Made by a program: the position numbers and the translations under genes. Under the pieces are notes generated by a model, which was not told the DNA's origin, did no database searches, and worked only from the letters and a program-made list of their open reading frames with translations. From Propionibacteriaceae bacterium (GTDB lineage: Bacteria; Actinomycetota; Actinomycetes; Propionibacteriales; Propionibacteriaceae): a DNA stretch of 64,000 nt. The stretch lies in NCBI GenBank assembly GCA_009782785.1, contig WRIJ01000002.1, forward strand, positions 1 through 64,000, read 5' to 3'. This document shows, in pieces, positions 8,258-56,548 of this stretch. Each line of letters begins with the position of its first letter. Position 1 is the first letter of the stretch.

Positions 8258-9819
8258 GATTCCTCCTCAGGTCCATCAGCAGGGACCAATTCAATAGGCG
8301 AGCTGCTCACTACTATGTTTTGGTTGCGAGGAAGAACCACTCGGAAATGGGCCCCATCGCCGGGATGGCCCCAGGCATGGATCCATCCTTGATGAAGGTG
8401 AACATCCTCCGAGGAGATCGCCAGCCCCAGACCTGTTCCACCGATATGGCGAGCCCTGGCTGGATCTGCCCTCCAGAATCGATCAAAGAGATGGGTGGCC
8501 TCCTCACTATCGAAACCCACTCCGTGGTCACGTATCGAGAAAGCCACAACATCTTTATCTTTTTTGAGACTCACGGTGACGGGTTGGCCTTCACCATGCT
8601 CGATGGCATTACTGAGCAGATTTCTCACCAAACGCGAGATCCTTCGTGAGTCGACCTCGGCAGTACACTGCTCATCAGCCTCCAAGGTGAGTTCACTTCC
8701 AGCTGAGGTAGCCAACTCTGACAGTGAATCCATCTCTGCGCGGATGAGATCACCCATGTCGTGTTCTTCCAGATCAAGGACAGCTGCTCCAGCATCAAAG
8801 CGAGAAATCTCCAGAAGGTCACCCAAGAGGGCTTCAAATCGATTGAGTTCCTTGTTGAGTAGTTCGATGGACTTATGTTGCACTTCTGGTAGAGACTCAC
8901 GTTTGTCATATATGACATCCACAGCCATGCGCACAGTTGTCAGCGGGGTGCGCAATTCGTGAGAGACATCAGAGACAAATCTTTGTTGGAGCCTCGAAAG
9001 CTGTTGCCAGGCTTGAATCCTCTGCTGGAGTTGGGTAGCCATATGGTTCATCGACCCAGCCAGTTGGGCAAGGTCATCTGTTCCACGTACGGGCATCAAT
9101 TCAGTCAGTTTTCCACTGGCCAGCTTCTCAGCGGCTTGGCTGGCCACCCGAACAGGAGCAAGAACCTGTCGTGATACTCCATAGGAGACCGCGCCCACCC
9201 CCAACAAGAGGACCAAGGAGGTCAATCCAACAGCGGTTCGTACCATGGCTAGTGTTCGTGCTTCATTCTCAAAAGAAAACACAAAGTAGACCACGTAGCG
9301 ATCACGCTGGGTGCCACCACCAGAGGCCACCACCAACCCCGGACCCGAGGAAGAATCCTTGAAGCGTACCTGGGTGGGAACCCAATGAACCAAAGCCGGG
9401 TCCTTCGCCACTGATTCGCGAATCTGGGGGGGGATAGCTGAGGTATCCATCGATGCTGCCGAGAAGGTGCCCACAGTGGTGACAAACTGGACCTGATAAC
9501 GCCCGGAGGAATACCCTCGTCGAATCGCCGAATTCACAATAGTGTTCAGTGCATCGGAATTGGCGGAATCATATCCGGTGGTTCTCATCATCTGCTCAAT
9601 TTCCACCAGAGCTTCATTGGCATCCACGAGTGCTGATTCTCGGGAATTATCGATGACACCCCCAGTGACCCGATAGAGCAAGAAAACCCCGGCGACCAAC
9701 ATCACCAAAAAGGAACCCAACATAGCTGAGGTGACCACCCTGAGAGCCAGCGAGGATTTCCACTGACGCGCAGGTGCACTCACCCAGGAGGGAATCCGGG
9801 GTCGGGTGATCTTATCCAC
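8254..9819 (-). CDS. mtrB: two-component sensor histidine kinase MtrB
   Basis: 521 residues. Two transmembrane helices (about 30-50 and 190-210) flank an extracytoplasmic sensor domain. A HAMP linker follows, then the HisKA phosphoacceptor box (VSHELRTPL, His near residue 285) and an HATPase domain with DHGVGF and GGTGLGLAIS. It responds to envelope or osmotic state and phosphorylates MtrA. Overlaps mtrA by eight bases and lpqB by four. Confidence 0.95.
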   Translation of the reverse strand: MDKITRPRIPSWVSAPARQWKSSLALRVVTSAMLGSFLVMLVAGVFLLYRVTGGVIDNSRESALVDANEALVEIEQMMRTTGYDSANSDALNTIVNSAIRRGYSSGRYQVQFVTTVGTFSAASMDTSAIPPQIRESVAKDPALVHWVPTQVRFKDSSSGPGLVVASGGGTQRDRYVVYFVFSFENEARTLAMVRTAVGLTSLVLLLGVGAVSYGVSRQVLAPVRVASQAAEKLASGKLTELMPVRGTDDLAQLAGSMNHMATQLQQRIQAWQQLSRLQQRFVSDVSHELRTPLTTVRMAVDVIYDKRESLPEVQHKSIELLNKELNRFEALLGDLLEISRFDAGAAVLDLEEHDMGDLIRAEMDSLSELATSAGSELTLEADEQCTAEVDSRRISRLVRNLLSNAIEHGEGQPVTVSLKKDKDVVAFSIRDHGVGFDSEEATHLFDRFWRADPARARHIGGTGLGLAISSEDVHLHQGWIHAWGHPGDGAHFRVVLPRNQNIVVSSSPIELVPADGPEEES

Positions 9820-47043: not shown

Positions 47044-47874
47044 ATGGGAAGATTCCACCGCCACGACGATGGTACGGTTCACTCTCACGGTGATGGTACG
47101 CCGCACAGTCACGATCACGACGGCCATTCCCACGATCATGTGAATGATCACGCCCATTCCCACCACAGTGATGAAGACCGCCAGGAAATAATTGGTGACC
47201 ACAGTGGTTATTCCACCGGCAGTGAACGCATTGACGTTTTGGAGAGAATCTTTGACGAAAATGATCGTGCAGCTGACTCTAATCGAGCCCTGTTTGACGC
47301 CGCGGGAATCACAGCCATCAATCTGATGAGTTCACCGGGTGCCGGGAAAACCACCCTTCTAGTAGAAACATTGAAGGCCCTGGGCTCTGAGGTACGCTGT
47401 GGGATCATCGAAGGGGATATTGAAACCTCACTCGATGCTGACCGGCTCCAAGGATTGGGTGCCCAGATTTCCTTGCTGAACACTGGAGATGGGTTCGGTG
47501 GGGAATGTCACCTCGATGCCCCCATGGTTGCCCGTGCATTGACCCGTCTCAATCTAGAGGAACTCGACCTCGTACTGGTTGAAAACGTAGGGAACCTCGT
47601 GTGCCCAGCAGAATTTGATGTGGGTGCTCACCGTCGCGCCATGGTCACCTCGGTGACCGAAGGGGAAGACAAACCGCTGAAATACCCAGTCATGTTCCGC
47701 AGCGTGGATGCAGTGGTCATCAACAAAATCGACCTCCTGCCGTACCTCACCTTCGACATGGATCTGTTCCTGGCTAATATCCGTGCGGTTAACCCACAGG
47801 CAACGGTTCTTCTCACGAGTGCAACCACGGGTGAAGGCATTGATGAGTGGGTCAACTGGGTGAAGGCTCACTGA
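47044..47874 (+). CDS. hypB: hydrogenase nickel incorporation GTPase HypB
   Basis: 276 residues. Residues 4-46 are extremely His-rich (HSHDHDGHSHDH), a nickel-storage tail; the N-terminal CxxCGC high-affinity site of E. coli HypB is absent. The GTPase domain has Walker A SSPGAGKTTLL (about 97-107), the G-domain metal-site pair in GECHLD (about 158-163), and NKIDLL. It powers nickel insertion. Its 3' end overlaps the tatC 3' end by 23 bases. Confidence 0.96.
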   Translation: MGRFHRHDDGTVHSHGDGTPHSHDHDGHSHDHVNDHAHSHHSDEDRQEIIGDHSGYSTGSERIDVLERIFDENDRAADSNRALFDAAGITAINLMSSPGAGKTTLLVETLKALGSEVRCGIIEGDIETSLDADRLQGLGAQISLLNTGDGFGGECHLDAPMVARALTRLNLEELDLVLVENVGNLVCPAEFDVGAHRRAMVTSVTEGEDKPLKYPVMFRSVDAVVINKIDLLPYLTFDMDLFLANIRAVNPQATVLLTSATTGEGIDEWVNWVKAH

Positions 47875-48688
47875 GCCCCAGGTTTTCTGGTTTCTTCAGG
47901 CGTCTGGAGTCGTTGATCCGGCAAATCACCTCAGCAATGACGTACATGGCCACCATAGGAATCAGCAAGACGATCATGGTGAGGGGGTCAGCGGGTGTGG
48001 CGATCGCTGAGAAAACAGCACAGATAACGATGGCGACGGATCTAAACCTTCCCAGAGCATGACCGGTGACTAGTCCCAATTTGTTGAGTGCCACCAGAAG
48101 AACTGGTAGGAGGAAGGTCAAACCGAAGACCACCAGGAGCCGTAACTCGAAGTTGAGGAAGGTGCCAACATCATTCAGATTAGTGACCGTGGGTGGGTTG
48201 AAACTCAACATGACCGCAAAACCATAGGGGCACATGGAATACCCCAGGGCCACCCCAGCCAAAAATAGGGGGATGGCAGCCACAAGAAAGAGGCGGGCTG
48301 TGGTTCTCTCCCGTCTACCTAGAGCAGGAATGATGAACCTCCACAGGTGATAAAGCCACACCGGGCAAGCAGCAATGAAACCAGCGAGGAAACCCACTTT
48401 GAAATAGAGGGCGAACCCAGCAGTCACCCCCTGGGTGACCATCTCCACATGGTCAGTGGGGCGCGCATTGTTGAAAATCTGAACTGCCTGATCGATGGGC
48501 CACAAAACGACCGCCAAGAGTTGGGCCTGGAAAATCAGTGCGATCGCCGTGGTGATGATGATAGCGATCATCGACATGAGGAATCGGTAACGCAATTCCC
48601 TCAAGTGGTCGAAGATGGACATCGACCCTTCGGTGTCTCGTGGCTTGGGTGCCCGAAGCCACGCCAGACGTGATCCCTTCTTGGGCAC
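47852..48688 (-). CDS. tatC: Sec-independent translocase TatC
   Basis: 278 residues with six membrane helices. The conserved SIFDHLRELRYR segment near residue 24 and the WRFIIPALGRRER loop near residue 115 form the twin-arginine signal receptor. It follows tatA by 11 bases. Inside the hydrogenase island its obvious client is the small subunit HyaA. Confidence 0.95.
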   Translation of the reverse strand: MPKKGSRLAWLRAPKPRDTEGSMSIFDHLRELRYRFLMSMIAIIITTAIALIFQAQLLAVVLWPIDQAVQIFNNARPTDHVEMVTQGVTAGFALYFKVGFLAGFIAACPVWLYHLWRFIIPALGRRERTTARLFLVAAIPLFLAGVALGYSMCPYGFAVMLSFNPPTVTNLNDVGTFLNFELRLLVVFGLTFLLPVLLVALNKLGLVTGHALGRFRSVAIVICAVFSAIATPADPLTMIVLLIPMVAMYVIAEVICRINDSRRLKKPENLGLSEPSPS

Positions 48689-48699
48689 AGAAAACTCAG

Positions 48700-48918
48700 C
48701 TACTTGCTGGACGAGGCCTCATCAGAGTCCATCTTCTCTGATTCGGAATCTGAGGAGGAATCCGCACTGATCTCATCTTTGAATTCACGGATGGCTCGAC
48801 CTGCGCCTTTACCAATGCCAGCGAGTTTTGCGCCACCAAACAATAGGACAGCGATGGCCAAAATGATTAACCATTCCATTCCACCGGGTGGCGAAAAAAG
48901 GAAAACCATGGGACTCAT
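48700..48918 (-). CDS. tatA: Sec-independent translocase TatA
   Basis: 72 residues from the ATG at 48918, chosen for its GGAGG site five bases upstream. One membrane helix (GGMEWLIILAIAVLLFGGAK) leads into an amphipathic helix with LAGIGKGAGRAIREF, the TatA/E signature, and an acidic, Ser-rich tail. TatA forms the export pore with TatC. Confidence 0.92.
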   Translation of the reverse strand: MSPMVFLFSPPGGMEWLIILAIAVLLFGGAKLAGIGKGAGRAIREFKDEISADSSSDSESEKMDSDEASSSK

Positions 48919-48969
48919 GAAAACCTCCATCATCGAGGGCGACGCCATGATCCTATCAGCCCACACCCG

Positions 48970-49068
48970 CCCCGGTCCCCTTTTCACCAATTTCCCCCAA
49001 CAAAAGGGGACGGGGCGTTTGTCACACAGGGACAACAAAAGGGGACGGGGCGTTTGTCACACGGGGAC
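48970..49068. repeat. palindrome and 35-bp tandem duplication between tatA and tatB
   Basis: CCCCGGTCCCCTTTT near 48970-48984 is complementary (one extra G) to AAAAGGGGACGGGG at 49002-49015. The segment beginning AACAAAAGGGGACGGGGCG is then repeated in tandem: 48999-49033 and 49034-49068, with one base difference near the end. Confidence 0.8.
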
Positions 49069-49125
49069 AGGCACCGCGTGACAGGGGGTCGGTATGAACT
49101 GTCACACCGTCTCGCATGACCAGGC

Positions 49126-49131
49126 TAGACT
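49126..49131 (+). promoter_or_regulatory. -10 element for leaderless tatB transcript
   Basis: TAGACT ends six bases before the ATG at 49138, with no ribosome site. Confidence 0.55.
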
Positions 49132-49137
49132 GTGGAC

Positions 49138-49545
49138 ATGACACCCATGTTTCTGGACATCTCGATGGCTGAGTTCCTGATTATTTGTGTCATCGCTGCC
49201 ATCCTGCTTGGTCCTGAAAAACTACCTCCCTTAGCGAAGAAAGCAGGACGGGTGTTCAAGTTTCTGCGTTCAGTAGCCAATAATGCCACTGAGCAGATCA
49301 AGGAGGAACTTGGTCCCGAGTTCTCCGACCTTCCCATCGACAGCATCCAGGACCTCAACCCAAAGAACCTGGTGGGTTCAATGCTCACTGGTGAAACCAT
49401 GCAGTCGGGTGTTGGTGGAGAACTCACGGCACTGCGCGACGAGATGGAATCCATGCGTACCGAGGTCACCAAACTCCGCCTCCAAGCCGGAGCCCCCCTG
49501 ATCCCCCCACGCCCGCGCACTCCCGCAGCCACACCCGAGGAATAA
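49138..49545 (+). CDS. tatB: Sec-independent translocase TatB
   Basis: 135 residues from the ATG at 49138; a GTG two codons earlier is the alternative. One N-terminal helix with the TatB pattern (MAEFLIICVIAAILLGPEKLP) is followed by a long amphipathic helix and a charged, coiled-coil-like C-terminus. It should recognise twin-arginine precursors with TatC. Divergent from tatA. A TAGACT hexamer six bases upstream predicts a leaderless mRNA. Confidence 0.88.
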   Translation: MTPMFLDISMAEFLIICVIAAILLGPEKLPPLAKKAGRVFKFLRSVANNATEQIKEELGPEFSDLPIDSIQDLNPKNLVGSMLTGETMQSGVGGELTALRDEMESMRTEVTKLRLQAGAPLIPPRPRTPAATPEE

Positions 49546-49976: not shown

Positions 49977-51224
49977 TTATCCTCTCACATCTGTATCAAC
50001 GACGAGTCCCATTGCGCCCACGGGGGCGCTGGAACAGGGCAAACATGGGTCGGCCTCACGAATAGCAGCCTCCATGTGGTGAACATTCCCGGTGGAGCCC
50101 GACGCTGCCTGGGTGAGCAGGCTCGCCAACCAGGGTTCGTTTTGAGCAGTGGGGGTCAAAATCTGTGCGGATTCCACCACACCGCGCTCACCTGTTTGAT
50201 AGCGATGAACAAGCAACCCCCGTGCACCATCCACCCATCCCACACCAACACCAGCAGCGAATTCTTCCTTCCAGGGTACGGCGACCTTGTCCAGAATCAG
50301 GATTGGATCTGTGAGAATCTGCTCAATGACTTCCACACAGTGAAGAATGATGGTGGCACGAGCCTGGGGTGCTCCCCCACCAGACTGCAACCACTGTTTC
50401 TGCAAGCGCGCTGAATGAGGTGTACCCAGTGGCGCTACACGTAACTGGGCCACGGGCCCTACCCGATAGGCCCCCTGGTCTGGACCGAGAGGGAGAAGAT
50501 AGGGGCGCGGAGCCGAGGATCCCGCATCTGTTTCAGCGACCATGGAATCCCAGTGATCGGAGGCGACTGAGTCAATGAGCACACCACCACCGCCCCCCAC
50601 CACTCGCAGGTATTCACCAAACAGATCAAGGTTGCCCCGCTCATCCACCAGAGCTACATCTGCTCCTTCAAAGTGGTCTGGCAGACTCGGTAACACACTC
50701 ACTGATTCCCACACTGCCCGAGCAGCTTCCAGAGCCTGGGGAACCATATCAAGAGTTTCAGTACGCTTCTCAGCAACCACCGGTGTGGTCACTCCCCCAG
50801 GAATAGCTGTGGTTGGGAAATGCCCTGGTGAACCAGCAGCCGCCATTGCTAGCTTCGCAAACTGGCGAAGGACCAAGGCTTGGTCGGGGAAGGTGGCAAG
50901 GAGTCCAACAACATGGATGGAGATCACCGAACCATAGTGGAGTAGCCGGCGTAGCTCCTGGGCAGCCACCGGTATTCCATCCAGCCCAGCGAGGGATTCT
51001 AGTGCTCGAACACCAGCGAGATGATGAGCCTGCGGGCAGATTCCGCACAGCCTCTCCACCAGCGAGGGCACCTCCCCCACAGCTCGACCCGTCAACATTC
51101 CATCCACACGCGGTAAGCCCGCCAAATCAAAGGTGGCACTCACCTGTCCGGCATCATCGTGTGTCACGACCACCCTGGCGGGAGCTGGATCAATGATCTC
51201 CCCAATGTTCACCTGCTGTATCAT
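49977..51224 (-). CDS. [NiFe]-hydrogenase large-subunit-like protein, HoxV/HupK-like scaffold candidate
   Basis: 415 residues, shorter than the 595-residue HyaB. It retains both cysteine pairs of a catalytic subunit: RLCGICPQAHH (Cys about 60 and 63) and DPCLPC near residue 395. After the second pair, however, the His/Arg that marks the protease cut site is replaced (SSAPVG), and no matching small subunit is encoded. Candidate role: a scaffold like HoxV/HupK that receives Fe(CN)2CO before transfer. A catalytic role with another small subunit cannot be excluded. A GAGGTGATT site precedes the ATG; 32 bases separate it from a divergent hypA. Confidence 0.7.
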   Translation of the reverse strand: MIQQVNIGEIIDPAPARVVVTHDDAGQVSATFDLAGLPRVDGMLTGRAVGEVPSLVERLCGICPQAHHLAGVRALESLAGLDGIPVAAQELRRLLHYGSVISIHVVGLLATFPDQALVLRQFAKLAMAAAGSPGHFPTTAIPGGVTTPVVAEKRTETLDMVPQALEAARAVWESVSVLPSLPDHFEGADVALVDERGNLDLFGEYLRVVGGGGGVLIDSVASDHWDSMVAETDAGSSAPRPYLLPLGPDQGAYRVGPVAQLRVAPLGTPHSARLQKQWLQSGGGAPQARATIILHCVEVIEQILTDPILILDKVAVPWKEEFAAGVGVGWVDGARGLLVHRYQTGERGVVESAQILTPTAQNEPWLASLLTQAASGSTGNVHHMEAAIREADPCLPCSSAPVGAMGLVVDTDVRG

Positions 51225-51256: not shown

Positions 51257-51601
51257 ATGCATGAACTCTCTCTGCTGGTCTCGGTAGTGAACTCGGTCAC
51301 GCAAGTAGCGCGATCCCGTGGAGCCACAAGAATCGAAAGAGTGGGTCTTCGTGTGGGAGCCCGAAGTGGAGCAGTACGTGAGGCCTTGGAGGGGTCGTGG
51401 CCGTTGGCGACACCAGGAACCATGTGCGAACAAGCGATTTTGGAGATTGAAGAGATCCCTGCACGAGTGTGGTGTTCCACCTGCGAGATCGATCAGGTGA
51501 TTGATGAGTTTTTCGCCCTGAAATGTCCCACATGTGGGGACCCTGCCGGCAAGATCACCAGTGGGACCGAGTTCGATGTGGCCTTCGCCGACATGGAATG
51601 A
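51257..51601 (+). CDS. hypA: hydrogenase nickel metallochaperone HypA (copy 2)
   Basis: 114 residues. MHEL start with nickel ligand His2, and zinc pairs CSTC (about 73-76) and CPTC (about 90-93). Clearly HypA, but diverged from copy 1. It lies on the plus strand inside a minus-strand operon: 32 bases from the divergent large-subunit-like gene and two bases from the convergent end of hyaD. AAGGAAA serves as ribosome site. Confidence 0.92.
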   Translation: MHELSLLVSVVNSVTQVARSRGATRIERVGLRVGARSGAVREALEGSWPLATPGTMCEQAILEIEEIPARVWCSTCEIDQVIDEFFALKCPTCGDPAGKITSGTEFDVAFADME

Positions 51602-51603
51602 TC

Positions 51604-52119
51604 TCATGAAACCTCGACTTGGTCGATATCGTCCAGCCACCCTTGGATGACACGGGTTGCCCTGGATTCTGCTTCGGCTAGTGCGCCTTGGACCTTCTCC
51701 CCTAAACCCAGGTGCGGACCAACATAGTCAGGCACGACACCCACCACAGCCAGTTCGTCGGGTTCACCACCGAGCAAACGCGCTGAGGTGAAGATATCCA
51801 GCAACCCCACTTGGTGAGGCGAGAGTTTCGAGGATAGCAACCGTGGAATTTGATCACCGGCTAGTTGAACCACCTCCCCTGGTGTGGAACCCGCCACGGC
51901 ATCTAGGATCAGTAACCGCGTCGAGTCTTGAACCACGGGTACAAGTTCGAGCCCAGCCGTACCGCCGTCAACAAAGTCAATCCGAGGATCATCAAACTTC
52001 GCAGTCAACACTTCCAGCAGGGCGAGACCGACACCATCATCGCCCATGAGGGGATTGCCGACACCCATGACGGTGACGGCAAACCCATCGCGTAAAGACT
52101 CGTCGATAACCGGACTCAC
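51604..52119 (-). CDS. hyaD: hydrogenase maturation endopeptidase HyaD
   Basis: 171 residues, M52-type protease. VMGVGNPLMGDDGVG (Glu/Asp nickel-sensing region near 25-30), DFVDGGTAGLEL and LILDAVAG are the family motifs. After nickel insertion it removes the C-terminal peptide of HyaB following DPCMSCAVH. Its start overlaps the cytochrome stop by four bases, so it is coupled to the structural operon. Confidence 0.94.
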   Translation of the reverse strand: MSPVIDESLRDGFAVTVMGVGNPLMGDDGVGLALLEVLTAKFDDPRIDFVDGGTAGLELVPVVQDSTRLLILDAVAGSTPGEVVQLAGDQIPRLLSSKLSPHQVGLLDIFTSARLLGGEPDELAVVGVVPDYVGPHLGLGEKVQGALAEAESRATRVIQGWLDDIDQVEVS

Positions 52120-53342
52120 TCAACCTTGGGGGCATCTACGGGCTCAGAGCCACGCCTGACCCAGACTCCACCGTTGATCATGGCGGACAATCCACCATGG
52201 CGTTCCAGGGATTCGCTACGCAACACCATGTAGATGTGCATGATGACGAAAGCCCACAAAAGGAACATCATCAGTGCGTGGATGAGACGCAAAGCCCCGA
52301 TACCAATCCATCCTGCAGGCAGAGAGATGAAAGCCCAGAAGGCACTGGTTTGATGATAGAGACCATAGAGCATGAACCCGGTCAGCAACTGGAATCCACC
52401 AGCGACATACAACGAGGTGTACGCCAGCTGCTGCAGTGGATTGTGAGCCAGATACAAAGGAGCATGTTCCTTGATGAAGGCATAGTGTTGCAGCACTCGA
52501 CCAAGGTTTTTGACATCTTCCTTGTTCTTCAATGGCCACAGGGTTTGCCAGCGAAGATAGCGGTCACGCGACATGAAAGCCGACCATATACGCGCCGCCC
52601 CAATCACCAGCCAGACAAAAGCTGCGGTGAAATGGATCACTCGAATCCAACCCATCAAGTAGCCACTGGCATCCGTACCGAAAGTGGTGGCCCCAAAGAA
52701 AGGATCCATGATGAAGATACCGGTGCAACTGAGGACAAAGATAGTCGCCACGTTCAACCAGTGCTGGAACCTGAGTGACACCGACCATAGCGGTACGCGG
52801 GCAAAGATCGCAGGCCCCGATGAGACATCAGCGGATTTTGCGTGACTTGCTGCAGGAGCAATCGGGACAAACCCTTCTATCCTGAACGGCCCCACGTGGT
52901 CGTCGTCATCAACTTTGGCCCGTGCCACAGCTAAAGGACGCCATCCGTTCACTTGAACAGCCTTAGCATTCTTCTTGATGACCCGGCGTTCCTCCTTGGA
53001 TATCTCCACCTTGTCGAGTACGGCATCCAGGTCACCACGCATGATCACACGATCATCGCGTCCACCATCTTGACGGTGGTAGCTACGAATCCGAGCCAAA
53101 CTGTAGCGCCTATTCGGCGATGCAGGATCAATGTCTGCTGCATCCACCTCGGGAACATCAAGACCCACATAGTTGGCTTTGAGCGATGCGATCGCAGCCC
53201 GATCGACAGGGTCATCACTATTCGGTGGGGCTGCTGCCGCCATCGTCATAATGCGACCCTCGCTGACGACACCCAGGCTATAAGCCGTCCCTGCTACCAG
53301 GGCGGGAAGCTCGGTTGTCGTAGCAGTTGAGTTACTGGTCAT
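52116..53342 (-). CDS. hydrogenase b-type cytochrome with P-type-ATPase-N-domain-like extension
   Basis: 408 residues. The C-terminal part (about 186-390) is a HyaC-type four-helix cytochrome b with candidate haem ligands His194, His237, His355 and His369; it should pass electrons from the small subunit to quinone. The first 185 residues are soluble and absent from normal HyaC (about 230 residues). They carry a string of segments like a P-type ATPase nucleotide-binding domain: DDPVDRAAI (43-51), DPASPNRRYSL (72-82), VIMRGDLDAVL (99-109), NGWRPLAVARAK (132-143) and FRIEGFVPI (153-161), without the phosphorylation DKTGT motif or ATPase membrane helices. Overlaps both neighbours by four bases. 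Confidence 0.85.
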   Translation of the reverse strand: MTSNSTATTTELPALVAGTAYSLGVVSEGRIMTMAAAAPPNSDDPVDRAAIASLKANYVGLDVPEVDAADIDPASPNRRYSLARIRSYHRQDGGRDDRVIMRGDLDAVLDKVEISKEERRVIKKNAKAVQVNGWRPLAVARAKVDDDDHVGPFRIEGFVPIAPAASHAKSADVSSGPAIFARVPLWSVSLRFQHWLNVATIFVLSCTGIFIMDPFFGATTFGTDASGYLMGWIRVIHFTAAFVWLVIGAARIWSAFMSRDRYLRWQTLWPLKNKEDVKNLGRVLQHYAFIKEHAPLYLAHNPLQQLAYTSLYVAGGFQLLTGFMLYGLYHQTSAFWAFISLPAGWIGIGALRLIHALMMFLLWAFVIMHIYMVLRSESLERHGGLSAMINGGVWVRRGSEPVDAPKVE

Positions 53343-55126
53343 GATTGGGCCACCTGGAGAACATTGCCCTCGTCATCCAAGACGTGGACAGCACACGACA
53401 TGCATGGGTCGAAGGAGTGGATGGTGCGCAGCACCTCCAGTGGCTGAGTGGGATCGGCCAAAGGATGCTCCTTGTTGCCTGCCAGTGAGTGCTCGAAGGG
53501 GCTCATTTGACCGGACTCATCACGTCCACCACCCAGCCATGTGGTCGGAACCACACACTGATAGTTGGCGATCTTCCTATCCTTGATCGTCACCCAGTGG
53601 GAGAGCATCCCGCGGGCCACCTCAAGCATGCCGAACCCGGAGGCTTCCTTCGGCCAGCTGCTGGGCTCCCACTTGGAAGCATCAAAGACATCATAATTGC
53701 CTTCGCGCAGGTTCTGGACGAATGTCGGGAAGACCTCGTCTTTCATCAGTTCCGCTGTCAACAGGCACTCGGCTGCACGAGCGAGGGCACGACCAGCAGT
53801 GGAGTTCATCTGCCCGAGGGTGATACCCAAGGTGGCCACAGCGCCGTCCACGATTTCTGTCATGCGTGGATGGCCTTGGGCGTACGCCATGATGACGCGG
53901 GCCACCGGACCCACCTGCATGCGCTTGCCGTCGTACATCGGTTCCTTGCACCAGGTGTATTTCCCATCCCAGTTGTCGTCTCGACCTACCAGCAAAACGG
54001 AGTCTGCATCAGGGAAGGTCTTTCCTTCGTAGGGTGGTTTCGGCCCTGAGTACGCCATCGTGGTTTCGCCCTCAAGTGGGGGCAATTCTTTGTCTGAACC
54101 TGAGTAGCTCAACCACGTCGAGTTCACCGATTCGGTGATCTTGGCAGGATCGAAAGGATGAACTGTCGAGAAATCATCATCGAAGATGACACCAGGTTTG
54201 ACGGTCATCTTGGAGGAAGGGAATTTCGGTTCAATATTCGGATCACCGGAATACATCGCACCGCCGAGACCCACCGCCAAATAGTTGGGGTTGGCTGCAC
54301 CGATATCGAAGTAGTCCTTATACACACCCACGATAGCCATCGCATCTGGTACATAACAGGTAGCTACGAATTCATGAATCTCGTTGATCCACTGCTGAAT
54401 GTGGGAGACCTGAACCTGGTTGACTGTCTCAGACTTGTTCTGATCGATGGTGCAAGCCATTCCACCAACAAGGAAGTGAGGGTGGGGGTTCTTTCCACCA
54501 AAGACCGTGACAATACGGATCATAGAACGCTGGAATTCCAGAGCATCTAAGTAGTGGGCCACAGCCATCAGATCAGCTTCTGGTGGGAGGCGATAATCCG
54601 CATGTCCCCAGTAGCCGTTCGTGAAGATAGATAATTGACCAGACTCGACAAGGTTCTTGACGGTGTCGCGTACCTCGGTCATGCGAGTGAGATTGTTGCC
54701 TCTCCAGGTTGAACCAATTGACTTGGCGAAATCCACAGCCTTCTGGGGGTCAGCGCTCGCTGCATTAGCTGCGTTGACGAAATCCAAGGCATGTAGGTGA
54801 TAGAAGTGCACCACATGGTCATGGATATCGGTGGTAGACAACACCATGTCACGGATGAGCATGGCCTGTTCGGGTGGCTGTGAGCCGATAGCATCCTCAA
54901 CTGCCATCACCGAAGTGGTGGCGTGGGTGCCCGTACACACTCCGCAGATGCGGTTGACGAAAGCCCAAGCATCCCTGGGATCACGGCCTTTGAGGATTTC
55001 TTCTAAACCCCTGAATTGGGTGGTGGAACTCCAAGCATCAGTGATCTTGCCACCTTCTGTTTCGAGTTCAATGCGCAGGTGACCCTCAATACGTGTGATG
55101 GGGTCGATAACGACGCGGTCTGCCAT
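53339..55126 (-). CDS. hyaB: [NiFe]-hydrogenase large subunit
   Basis: 595 residues. Nickel ligands: RICGVCTGTH (Cys61, Cys64) and DPCMSCAVH (Cys575, Cys578, His581); the 14 residues after His581 are the peptide removed by HyaD. The family opening VIDPITRIEGHLRIE is present. With HyaA it forms a membrane-bound group 1 uptake hydrogenase that oxidises H2 at the outer face. AAAGGA precedes the ATG, 18 bases after hyaA. Confidence 0.97.
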   Translation of the reverse strand: MADRVVIDPITRIEGHLRIELETEGGKITDAWSSTTQFRGLEEILKGRDPRDAWAFVNRICGVCTGTHATTSVMAVEDAIGSQPPEQAMLIRDMVLSTTDIHDHVVHFYHLHALDFVNAANAASADPQKAVDFAKSIGSTWRGNNLTRMTEVRDTVKNLVESGQLSIFTNGYWGHADYRLPPEADLMAVAHYLDALEFQRSMIRIVTVFGGKNPHPHFLVGGMACTIDQNKSETVNQVQVSHIQQWINEIHEFVATCYVPDAMAIVGVYKDYFDIGAANPNYLAVGLGGAMYSGDPNIEPKFPSSKMTVKPGVIFDDDFSTVHPFDPAKITESVNSTWLSYSGSDKELPPLEGETTMAYSGPKPPYEGKTFPDADSVLLVGRDDNWDGKYTWCKEPMYDGKRMQVGPVARVIMAYAQGHPRMTEIVDGAVATLGITLGQMNSTAGRALARAAECLLTAELMKDEVFPTFVQNLREGNYDVFDASKWEPSSWPKEASGFGMLEVARGMLSHWVTIKDRKIANYQCVVPTTWLGGGRDESGQMSPFEHSLAGNKEHPLADPTQPLEVLRTIHSFDPCMSCAVHVLDDEGNVLQVAQS

Positions 55127-55144: not shown

Positions 55145-56359
55145 CTAACTTGCCGTGGTTTCGGCATCGTTGGTGGACGTTGAGGCGCCTTCGTCACCGA
55201 AGGCAGCTAAGGATTCCTCATCGGAGTCCTTGGAAGAGGCGGCTTTACGGATGGCGGTTGCTCCCGCATGCAGACCGATACCGGCGACTGTGGCTGCAAC
55301 CAGCCCCAAACCAACCTTCTCGGCTGTTCCTTCGACACCGAAACCCGGGACATTGGGCAGACGGGAGAAGAAAGGAGTGAACTTGTCGAAGAAGTCCTTC
55401 TCCGTACACCCGATACATGGGTTTCCGCTCTTGACTGGCCAAGAGGTGTGCATATTCCATTGGATGATCGGGCAAGCACTAAACGTACTGGGGCCCTTGC
55501 ATCCCACCTGGTAGAGACACCACCCGTTGCGGGCACCCTCGTCATCGAAGGTACGCACAAACTGTCCGGCGTCAAAGTGCGGACGACGCTGGCAGGAGTC
55601 ATGGATCCGCTGATCATAGGCGAACAGTGGACGACCCTGCGAGTCTGTCTTAGGAGCGGAACCATGAGTCAGGAAGTATGCGATCGTTGCCAAAATCACT
55701 TCAGCAATCGGCGGGCACCCGGACACATTGATGACCGACTTGCTACCCAATACAGTGTCAACACCCACAGCGCCGGTGGGGTTTGGGTAAGCGGCTTGAA
55801 CACCGCCATACACCGAGCAAGCGCCGACGGCGAGAACAGCAGCGGCACCCTTTGCTGACTTTTTGAGCACCTCTTCTGAGGTTTCCCCGCCGATCATGCA
55901 ACAGACACCTCCCTCTGCGCGGGAGACAGCGCCGTTGACGACGAGAATATGCCCGCCTTCGGCAACAGTGTCTTCCAGGGCCTTGTTGGCTGCTTCACCG
56001 GTGGCTGCCATGACTAGCTCGTTGTAGTTGACCGAGAGAAGATTCAGTACGACATCTTCAACAGTCGTGCCTGATCCTCTCAGAACCGACTCCATGCAAC
56101 CAGTACATTCTTGGAGTTGCAACCAGATCACATTAGGTTTCGTCACCGAGTCGAATGCTCGGGCGATGTCGTCTGCTGTGACATTTCCTGGCAGCGGTTC
56201 AGCGTTGGCTGCTACCGGCGATCCGAGAACCGTGGAACCGGCTGCAAAGACAGCTGCGAGGCTGCCACAATAAGTGAGAAAGTCACGGCGGGATACCCCA
56301 GCTTTCTCAAGATTTTCCGAAAAGGTTGGTTCAGACCAACCGTCCATTGAATAAGTCAC
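55145..56359 (-). CDS. hyaA: [NiFe]-hydrogenase small subunit with Tat signal
   Basis: 404 residues from the GTG at 56359 (GGAG five bases upstream). The twin-arginine signal is SRRDFL (Arg24, Arg25). The proximal cluster ligand pair is ECTGC, the ordinary four-Cys type, not the CTCC seen in oxygen-tolerant enzymes. Further cluster ligands lie in GACSVYGG, SGCPP, CQRRPHFDAG, GWCLYQVGCKGP, SACPIIQWN and CIGC. A C-terminal helix (VGLGLVAATVAGIGLHAGA) anchors it in the membrane, followed by an acidic Ser/Thr tail. First gene of hyaA-hyaB-cytochrome b-hyaD. Confidence 0.96.
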   Translation of the reverse strand: MTYSMDGWSEPTFSENLEKAGVSRRDFLTYCGSLAAVFAAGSTVLGSPVAANAEPLPGNVTADDIARAFDSVTKPNVIWLQLQECTGCMESVLRGSGTTVEDVVLNLLSVNYNELVMAATGEAANKALEDTVAEGGHILVVNGAVSRAEGGVCCMIGGETSEEVLKKSAKGAAAVLAVGACSVYGGVQAAYPNPTGAVGVDTVLGSKSVINVSGCPPIAEVILATIAYFLTHGSAPKTDSQGRPLFAYDQRIHDSCQRRPHFDAGQFVRTFDDEGARNGWCLYQVGCKGPSTFSACPIIQWNMHTSWPVKSGNPCIGCTEKDFFDKFTPFFSRLPNVPGFGVEGTAEKVGLGLVAATVAGIGLHAGATAIRKAASSKDSDEESLAAFGDEGASTSTNDAETTAS

Positions 56360-56548
56360 TCGAACTCCGCTCCTTTGGGGATTGTCCGACCGCTTGTGCC
56401 CCCTCAACTCCCGGTTAAATCCGGGCCTGCGAGTCACGAACGATCACTAGCCACATCATAGCGGGTGGGTGATGATCGAGGGAGAAATCTTGCTTAGATT
56501 CAACACAATGTGAGACACCAAGATTTTCACGCCTGAAACAACCGGTGA
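56360..56548 (-). promoter_or_regulatory. upstream region of the hydrogenase operon
   Basis: 189 bases. On the minus strand TATGAT (about 56455-56460) is the best -10 candidate. The leader then holds a small hairpin, CCCGG-N6-CCGGG, at 56410-56425. I found no convincing FNR, NikR or HoxA-type site. Confidence 0.35.

Follow-up and report, generated by a model that had tools for sequence, protein, structure and literature searches.

A hydrogenase cytochrome b that carries a P-type ATPase N-domain

To our knowledge, the nucleotide-binding domains (N-domains) of P-type ATPases are known as parts of pumps, from which the KdpB N-domain (1svj) and the CopA ATP-binding domain (2b8e) were cut. The b-type cytochromes of the HyaC/HupC/CybH group (TIGR02125) follow the small- and large-subunit genes of hydrogenases, and the members examined from outside the family Propionibacteriaceae have no N-domain. 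In a 64,000-nucleotide stretch of a Propionibacteriaceae genome (assembly GCA_009782785.1, contig WRIJ01000002.1, positions 1 to 64,000; here called the window), one gene of a hydrogenase cluster encodes both modules, an N-domain that is naturally free of a pump and a cytochrome b. We put at about 0.97 the probability that its product is a quinone-facing cytochrome b, belonging to an exported uptake [NiFe]-hydrogenase, to whose N-terminus a true P-type N-domain is attached through a flexible linker. Like the N-domain of the plasma-membrane proton pumps (IIIA; Pma1 and AHA2), the fused domain shows the elements DP(V/I)D, xPxxxR, (K/R)G, LRxLAVA, and G(F/L)(V/L)P in this order and has the same predicted fold; unlike in those pumps, the phosphorylation domain, the actuator, and the transport helices are all missing. 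Its membrane part scores above the TIGR02125 cut-off, and its gene has the same place behind the two subunit genes as those of HyaC/HupC/CybH.

The gene (open reading frame 52116-53342, minus strand) encodes 408 amino acids, and the PF01292 and TIGR02125 matches begin at residue 186, in agreement with the original prediction of about 185 extra N-terminal residues on a hydrogenase cytochrome b. Residues 186-391 of the membrane part, a Ni/Fe-hydrogenase b-type cytochrome (52116..52787, minus strand), match TIGR02125 with an E value of 2e-39 and 135.3 bits (cut-off, 121.5), and PF01292 (E value of 1.1e-25) is the sole Pfam family found in the whole protein at E values up to 1. The N-domain homologue occupies residues ~22-166 (52845..53279, minus strand) and is joined to the membrane part by a linker (52788..52841, minus strand) in which residues 168-179 have predicted local distance difference test (pLDDT) values of <50 in the full-length model. 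Since the ATG of the fusion gene and the stop of the upstream large-subunit gene (53339-55126) overlap by 4 bases, which fixes the start, the 185 extra residues are part of the gene. The abutment is kept in a second copy in the same genome (locus L126), where hyaB residues extend to position 8721 and the domain starts from 8721. The DKTGT phosphorylation site and its P-domain are absent from the 408 residues, as are the transport helices and the actuator domain of P-type ATPases, the membrane part being cytochrome b. Both the missing phosphorylation domain and the missing transport helices had been noted from the sequence, and the five N-terminal segments likened there to P-type ATPase motifs are all present in the stated order. 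Because the phosphorylation domain is missing, the protein cannot act as a P-type ATPase.

The N-terminal domain is homologous to P-type ATPase N-domains

When the N-terminal 185 residues were compared with NCBIfam, residues 23-161 matched positions 310-439 of the proton-pump model TIGR01647 with an E value of 0.0017 (0.012 with the whole protein as the query). Among the 28 fusions of the family (described below), each scanned singly at E values up to 1, 17 matched TIGR01647, with a best E value of 7.1e-6; the only other NCBIfam families matched by more than one member were the heavy-metal (3 members) and cadmium (2 members) P-type ATPases, and eight unrelated families were matched by one member each (E values of 0.03 to 0.23). 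Profile-profile comparison was clearer. With hhalign, the domain profile aligned with six P-type ATPase stretches over 146 columns at a probability of 96% and an E value of 3.8e-9, while the second alignment reached at most 0.9% (E value of 0.059) in 40 shuffles of its columns and 0.1% when reversed.

A profile search of genomes gave the same answer: the DNA was read for 13 outside matches (6 at the order level, 5 at the class level, and 2 more at the phylum level; 24 further order-search matches were left unread), and each of them is a P-type ATPase in which the match lies between DKTGT and TGD. These matches are individually weak (E values of 7.9e-6 to 0.002). Those at the order level span mainly the Ala-rich start of the domain (residues 17-76), and those from the class and phylum searches also span residues 46-153. 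The predicted fold of the domain is the P-type ATPase N-domain fold; among the matches listed by the fold search, 49 of 50 are P-type ATPases, and the 50th is titled only as a membrane transport protein. The first five VIA-align rows are Pma1 and plant and fungal proton pumps, and the top Foldseek match is the calcium pump SPCA1.

A chance or convergent likeness in a partly Ala-rich sequence could account for the empty single-sequence search of PDB sequences, in which the domain found nothing up to an E value of 10, and for several order-level matches being confined to Ala-rich residues 24-66. Profile searches of PDB likewise gave best E values of only 0.26 and 0.17; P-type ATPases were among the best rows (E values of 0.17 to 1.2), mixed with hexokinase, SopB, and a histone methyltransferase, and these searches were not counted as evidence. 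By the profile, genome-search, and fold results, the likeness is beyond chance, and coincidence is an extremely improbable explanation. The fold came out as that of a P-type ATPase N-domain rather than an unrelated one, and the profile comparisons match P-type ATPases along the domain's length rather than in low-complexity sequence alone. The domain is a homologue of the P-type ATPase N-domain, and the overall interpretation offered in the original prediction, an N-domain on a hydrogenase cytochrome b, is borne out by the fold and profile results.

The fusion is confined to one family in the genomes searched

A domain search of 198 Propionibacteriaceae genomes found 28 complete fusions in 27 genomes, so that the same architecture, proposed for a search in other actinobacterial clusters, does recur. 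One further genome (G178) has only a piece of the domain, cut off by the end of a contig, and was excluded, and five weaker matches (E values of 0.0015 to 0.009) were set aside; two of these (L031 and L032) were inspected by eye and showed no recognizable relative, and the others were left unread. TIGR02125 scored over its cut-off at 28 places in 27 of the 198 genomes, identical to the 28 places of the domain, so all 28 family cytochromes b over the cut-off carry it. A 29th TIGR02125 match in the family, in G056, lies far under the cut-off in a 210-amino-acid frame.

Among 346 genomes sampled from the phylum, 11, including the window's own genome, had a TIGR02125 match over the cut-off, and in the other 10 the frames (206 to 330 amino acids) are too short for domain plus cytochrome; this comparison covers matches over the cut-off, not longer frames under it. 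The 330-amino-acid frame (G822) partly overlaps the large-subunit gene. No strong domain match was found outside the family in overlapping samples of 391 genomes from the order, 394 from the class, and 396 from the phylum. Of 75 plasmid records that matched, none covered 80% of the query, and in the two longest matches (79% and 71%) the large-subunit gene lies where the domain region is reached. A scan of genome contigs gave only a match to the cytochrome part, in a Chlorobium metagenome-assembled genome, and no DKTGT frame is present at loci L069 and L070. The genome's ribosomal protein S7 (L138) has its best PDB match in 8crx, the Cutibacterium acnes ribosome, a hint that fits Propionibacteriaceae. 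We found no paper on a fusion of this kind or on an N-domain standing alone, nor any on hydrogen uptake in this family, in searches that used strict term combinations and open-access text only and are therefore not proof that neither is published.

The pocket residues are conserved and the domain is under purifying selection

Column counts were taken over the 28 family members, including the window protein. D44-P-V-D47 (53202..53213, minus strand) corresponds to the acidic turn (DxID/EATE) that forms part of the nucleotide pocket; D44 is present in 28/28 members, and position 47 is Asp or Glu in 27. The segment I71-D-P-A-S-P-N-R-R-Y-S81 (53100..53132, minus strand) corresponds to the FxPxxKR strand, with P73 in every member and Arg or Lys at position 78 in 27 of the 28. 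Its stacking position, residue 71, is Val in 18 members, Phe in 5, Ile in 3 (the window protein among them), and Ser and Thr in 1 each; the register here is uncertain, the loop being longer than that of the pumps. R102-G103-D104 (53031..53039, minus strand), the counterpart of KGA, aligns with KGD/KGA of P-type ATPases, and both R102 and G103 are invariant. In the counterpart of GLRxLAVA, W-R135-P-L-A-V-A (52923..52943, minus strand), R135, L137, and A140 are each found in 28/28. Six of the 10 invariant columns (D44, P73, R102, G103, R135, and L137) sit in or beside pocket segments. We link the pocket to SERCA positions E439, E442, K492, and K515, the first two with D44-P-V-D47. R135 is the counterpart of SERCA R560. 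In SERCA, the nucleotide is anchored by Phe487 and Arg560 (PMC3203174).

The ratio of nonsynonymous to synonymous substitution rates (dN/dS) of the domain is 0.03 to 0.32 in 7 pairs, although the value for the pair of the window with L002 is rough, since dS is saturated (2.1). The domain is under purifying selection. Pairwise distances of domain and cytochrome are correlated (Mantel r of 0.79; the best of 2,000 permutations reached 0.26), the pattern expected if the two were fused once, long ago. A domain that merely persists as a neutral passenger of such a fusion might be expected from its divergence, which is faster than that of the cytochrome, but it has been kept in 28/28 members with invariant pocket residues and with the low dN/dS values just given, and we consider the passenger explanation very improbable.

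A small-subunit tail motif accompanies the fused domain

A candidate partner peptide for the N-domain is the motif SLAAFGD (55193..55213, minus strand) in the tail of the hydrogenase small subunit, C-terminal to its membrane helix; the tail peptide in the window is EESLAAFGDEGAS. Tails were compared for 26 of the 28 fused loci (L155, where no small subunit was found, and L021, from G161, were left out) and for 12 unfused clusters, with L003 dropped; the unfused tails were taken from 9 of the 10 phylum genomes that score over the cut-off, from two that score below it (G949 and G794), and from one plasmid. Of the 26 complete tails from fused clusters, 25 carry AFGD (21 in the form PLxAFGD); none of the 12 unfused ones does. 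In 20 aligned fused tails, only PLxAFGD and a C-terminal Glu are kept in at least 90% beyond the helix. The sole fused tail without AFGD (L159, genome G164) belongs with a cytochrome, L015, that deviates at P45L, V46L, A74V, R78Q, S81Q, and R132H in its N-domain.

These tails bring in another explanation, that nucleotide binding has been lost and that the domain is an ATP-independent docking or assembly platform for the PLxAFGD tail, by which the cytochrome and the catalytic dimer are held together or checked. The presence of AFGD in 25 of 26 fused and 0 of 12 unfused tails, the missing stacking Phe in 23 of 28 members, and the coincidence of the one AFGD-less cluster with an altered N-domain all speak for a platform. 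The charged pocket (D44, R102-G103, and R135), in contrast, is invariant and would be unneeded by a pure scaffold. Moreover, the G164 coincidence is a single case noticed afterwards, and four other cytochromes (L010, L022, L023, and L029) deviate in 6 to 8 columns, with some of the changes falling in those segments (D47T, D72E, and S81T in L010; D47E and D72S in L022), yet their clusters keep the tail (L156, L132, L128, and L134, respectively). Since several fused genomes are close relatives, the 25 tails with AFGD do not represent independent events. A platform without nucleotide binding seems to us possible but on the unlikely side.

The domain may regulate electron transfer from hydrogen

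Several observations weigh against reading the protein as a cytochrome with a functional N-domain. Eleven of the 28 members have no TIGR01647 match, and no Pfam P-type family was found for any of the 28 at E values up to 1. The full-length model has a predicted template modeling (pTM) score of 0.50, and the placement of the domain relative to the rest is not confident. The adenine-stacking Phe is present in just 5 of 28 members, so the aromatic residue looked for in types II and III is mostly lacking, in the window protein too; unlike the IIIA proton pumps, the fusions mostly have Val or Ile there, and the Lys of KGA is replaced by Arg in all 28. Divergence is more rapid in the domain than in the cytochrome (mean distance of 0.50 versus 0.35). 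The tail motif is confounded with ancestry, as no family cytochrome over the cut-off is without the domain and the unfused controls belong to other lineages, and AFGD may therefore mark the lineage rather than the domain. With the stacking Phe mostly gone and the Lys of KGA replaced, the domain may bind ATP weakly or no longer at all.

The orientation of the protein can be estimated from its charges. Over the 28 members, Lys plus Arg counts are 8 to 11 in loop 251-300, 4 to 6 in the C-terminal tail, and 0 to 2 and 0 to 1 in the other two loops, which, by the positive-inside rule, would place the domain and the two termini in the cytosol. The catalytic subunits, of which the small one has an RR motif (SRRDFLTY, recognized by eye), would lie outside.

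A retained N-domain would, in that position, most likely bind a nucleotide or a similar anionic ligand reversibly. It could then dock on and leave the membrane complex at its cytoplasmic face, perhaps via the conserved small-subunit tail, and docking would set the rate at which electrons from H2 reach the quinone pool. That a ligand bound to the domain regulates electron transfer in some such way has, in our estimate, about an even chance. The domain may bind ATP and so couple H2 oxidation to the energy state, as had been suggested; the charged residues of the pocket are kept, the stacking Phe mostly not. A more specific version, which we hold to be unlikely, is a cytosolic gate in which the nucleotide (ATP or ADP) and the PLxAFGD tail would compete for or share the pocket, with energy charge switching the flow from H2 to quinone; the tail Phe perhaps occupies the space of the lost stacking Phe.

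The domain might instead work in trans, with one of the cell's P-type ATPases as its target: by sensing the regulatory partner of that pump, or competing for it, it would coordinate H2 oxidation with ion pumping. The best matches in NCBIfam and VIA-align are proton pumps, and the TIGR01647 matches in the window's own genome include three P-type ATPase loci. The P-type ATPases of this genome are, however, under the TIGR01647 cut-off, and no DKTGT[LI]T was found in the 12 longer loci read (11.6 to 20 kb around the fusion). The suggestion of a partner ATPase is thus unsupported so far, and action in trans appears quite improbable. A P-type ATPase gene adjoining the cluster was dropped as a candidate on the same result; the nearest P-type ATPase match on the contig of the window is ~46 kb off.

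Several genera of a single bacterial family here use a P-type N-domain as a separate module on a respiratory enzyme. If nucleotide is bound, energy charge would be linked directly to H2 oxidation at the enzyme itself, the cell might tune its use of hydrogen to its energy state, and the fusion would be a natural case of a P-type ATPase N-domain serving as a sensor by itself. The domain would then offer a small soluble system for studies of N-domain binding and regulation without a pump, and the tail motif makes a partner testable at once.

The surrounding hydrogenase cluster

The large subunit (hyaB-like; 53339..55126, minus strand) matches PF00374 with an E value of 2.5e-197, and the small subunit (hyaA-like; 55145..56437, minus strand; listed with a GTG start, the true start being uncertain) matches PF01058 and PF14720. 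Downstream of the fusion lies a hydrogenase maturation protease gene (hupD/hycI; 51604..52119, minus strand; PF01750, E value of 3.5e-22), followed by hypA (51257..51601, plus strand; PF01155, E value of 3.5e-26) and a HupK-like large-subunit paralogue (49977..51224, minus strand; partial PF00374 match, E value of 1.6e-10). The order hyaA-hyaB-fusion-hupD was found in 12 of the 12 longer loci read.

The proximal cluster motif of the small subunit is ECTGCMES, which lacks the extra cysteines of O2-tolerant hydrogenases; the enzyme is probably of the O2-sensitive type. Beside the cluster, at 47852-49545, are tat-like genes recognized by eye, which tblastn also found in L126 and L127. L126 (G000:C1:5704-12106) is a second hydrogenase operon of the same assembly, with the same gene order and adjoining tat-like genes. 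It is 84 to 89% identical to the window in small subunit, large subunit, domain, and cytochrome and may be a paralogue or come from another strain, the contamination of the assembly being 6.48%.
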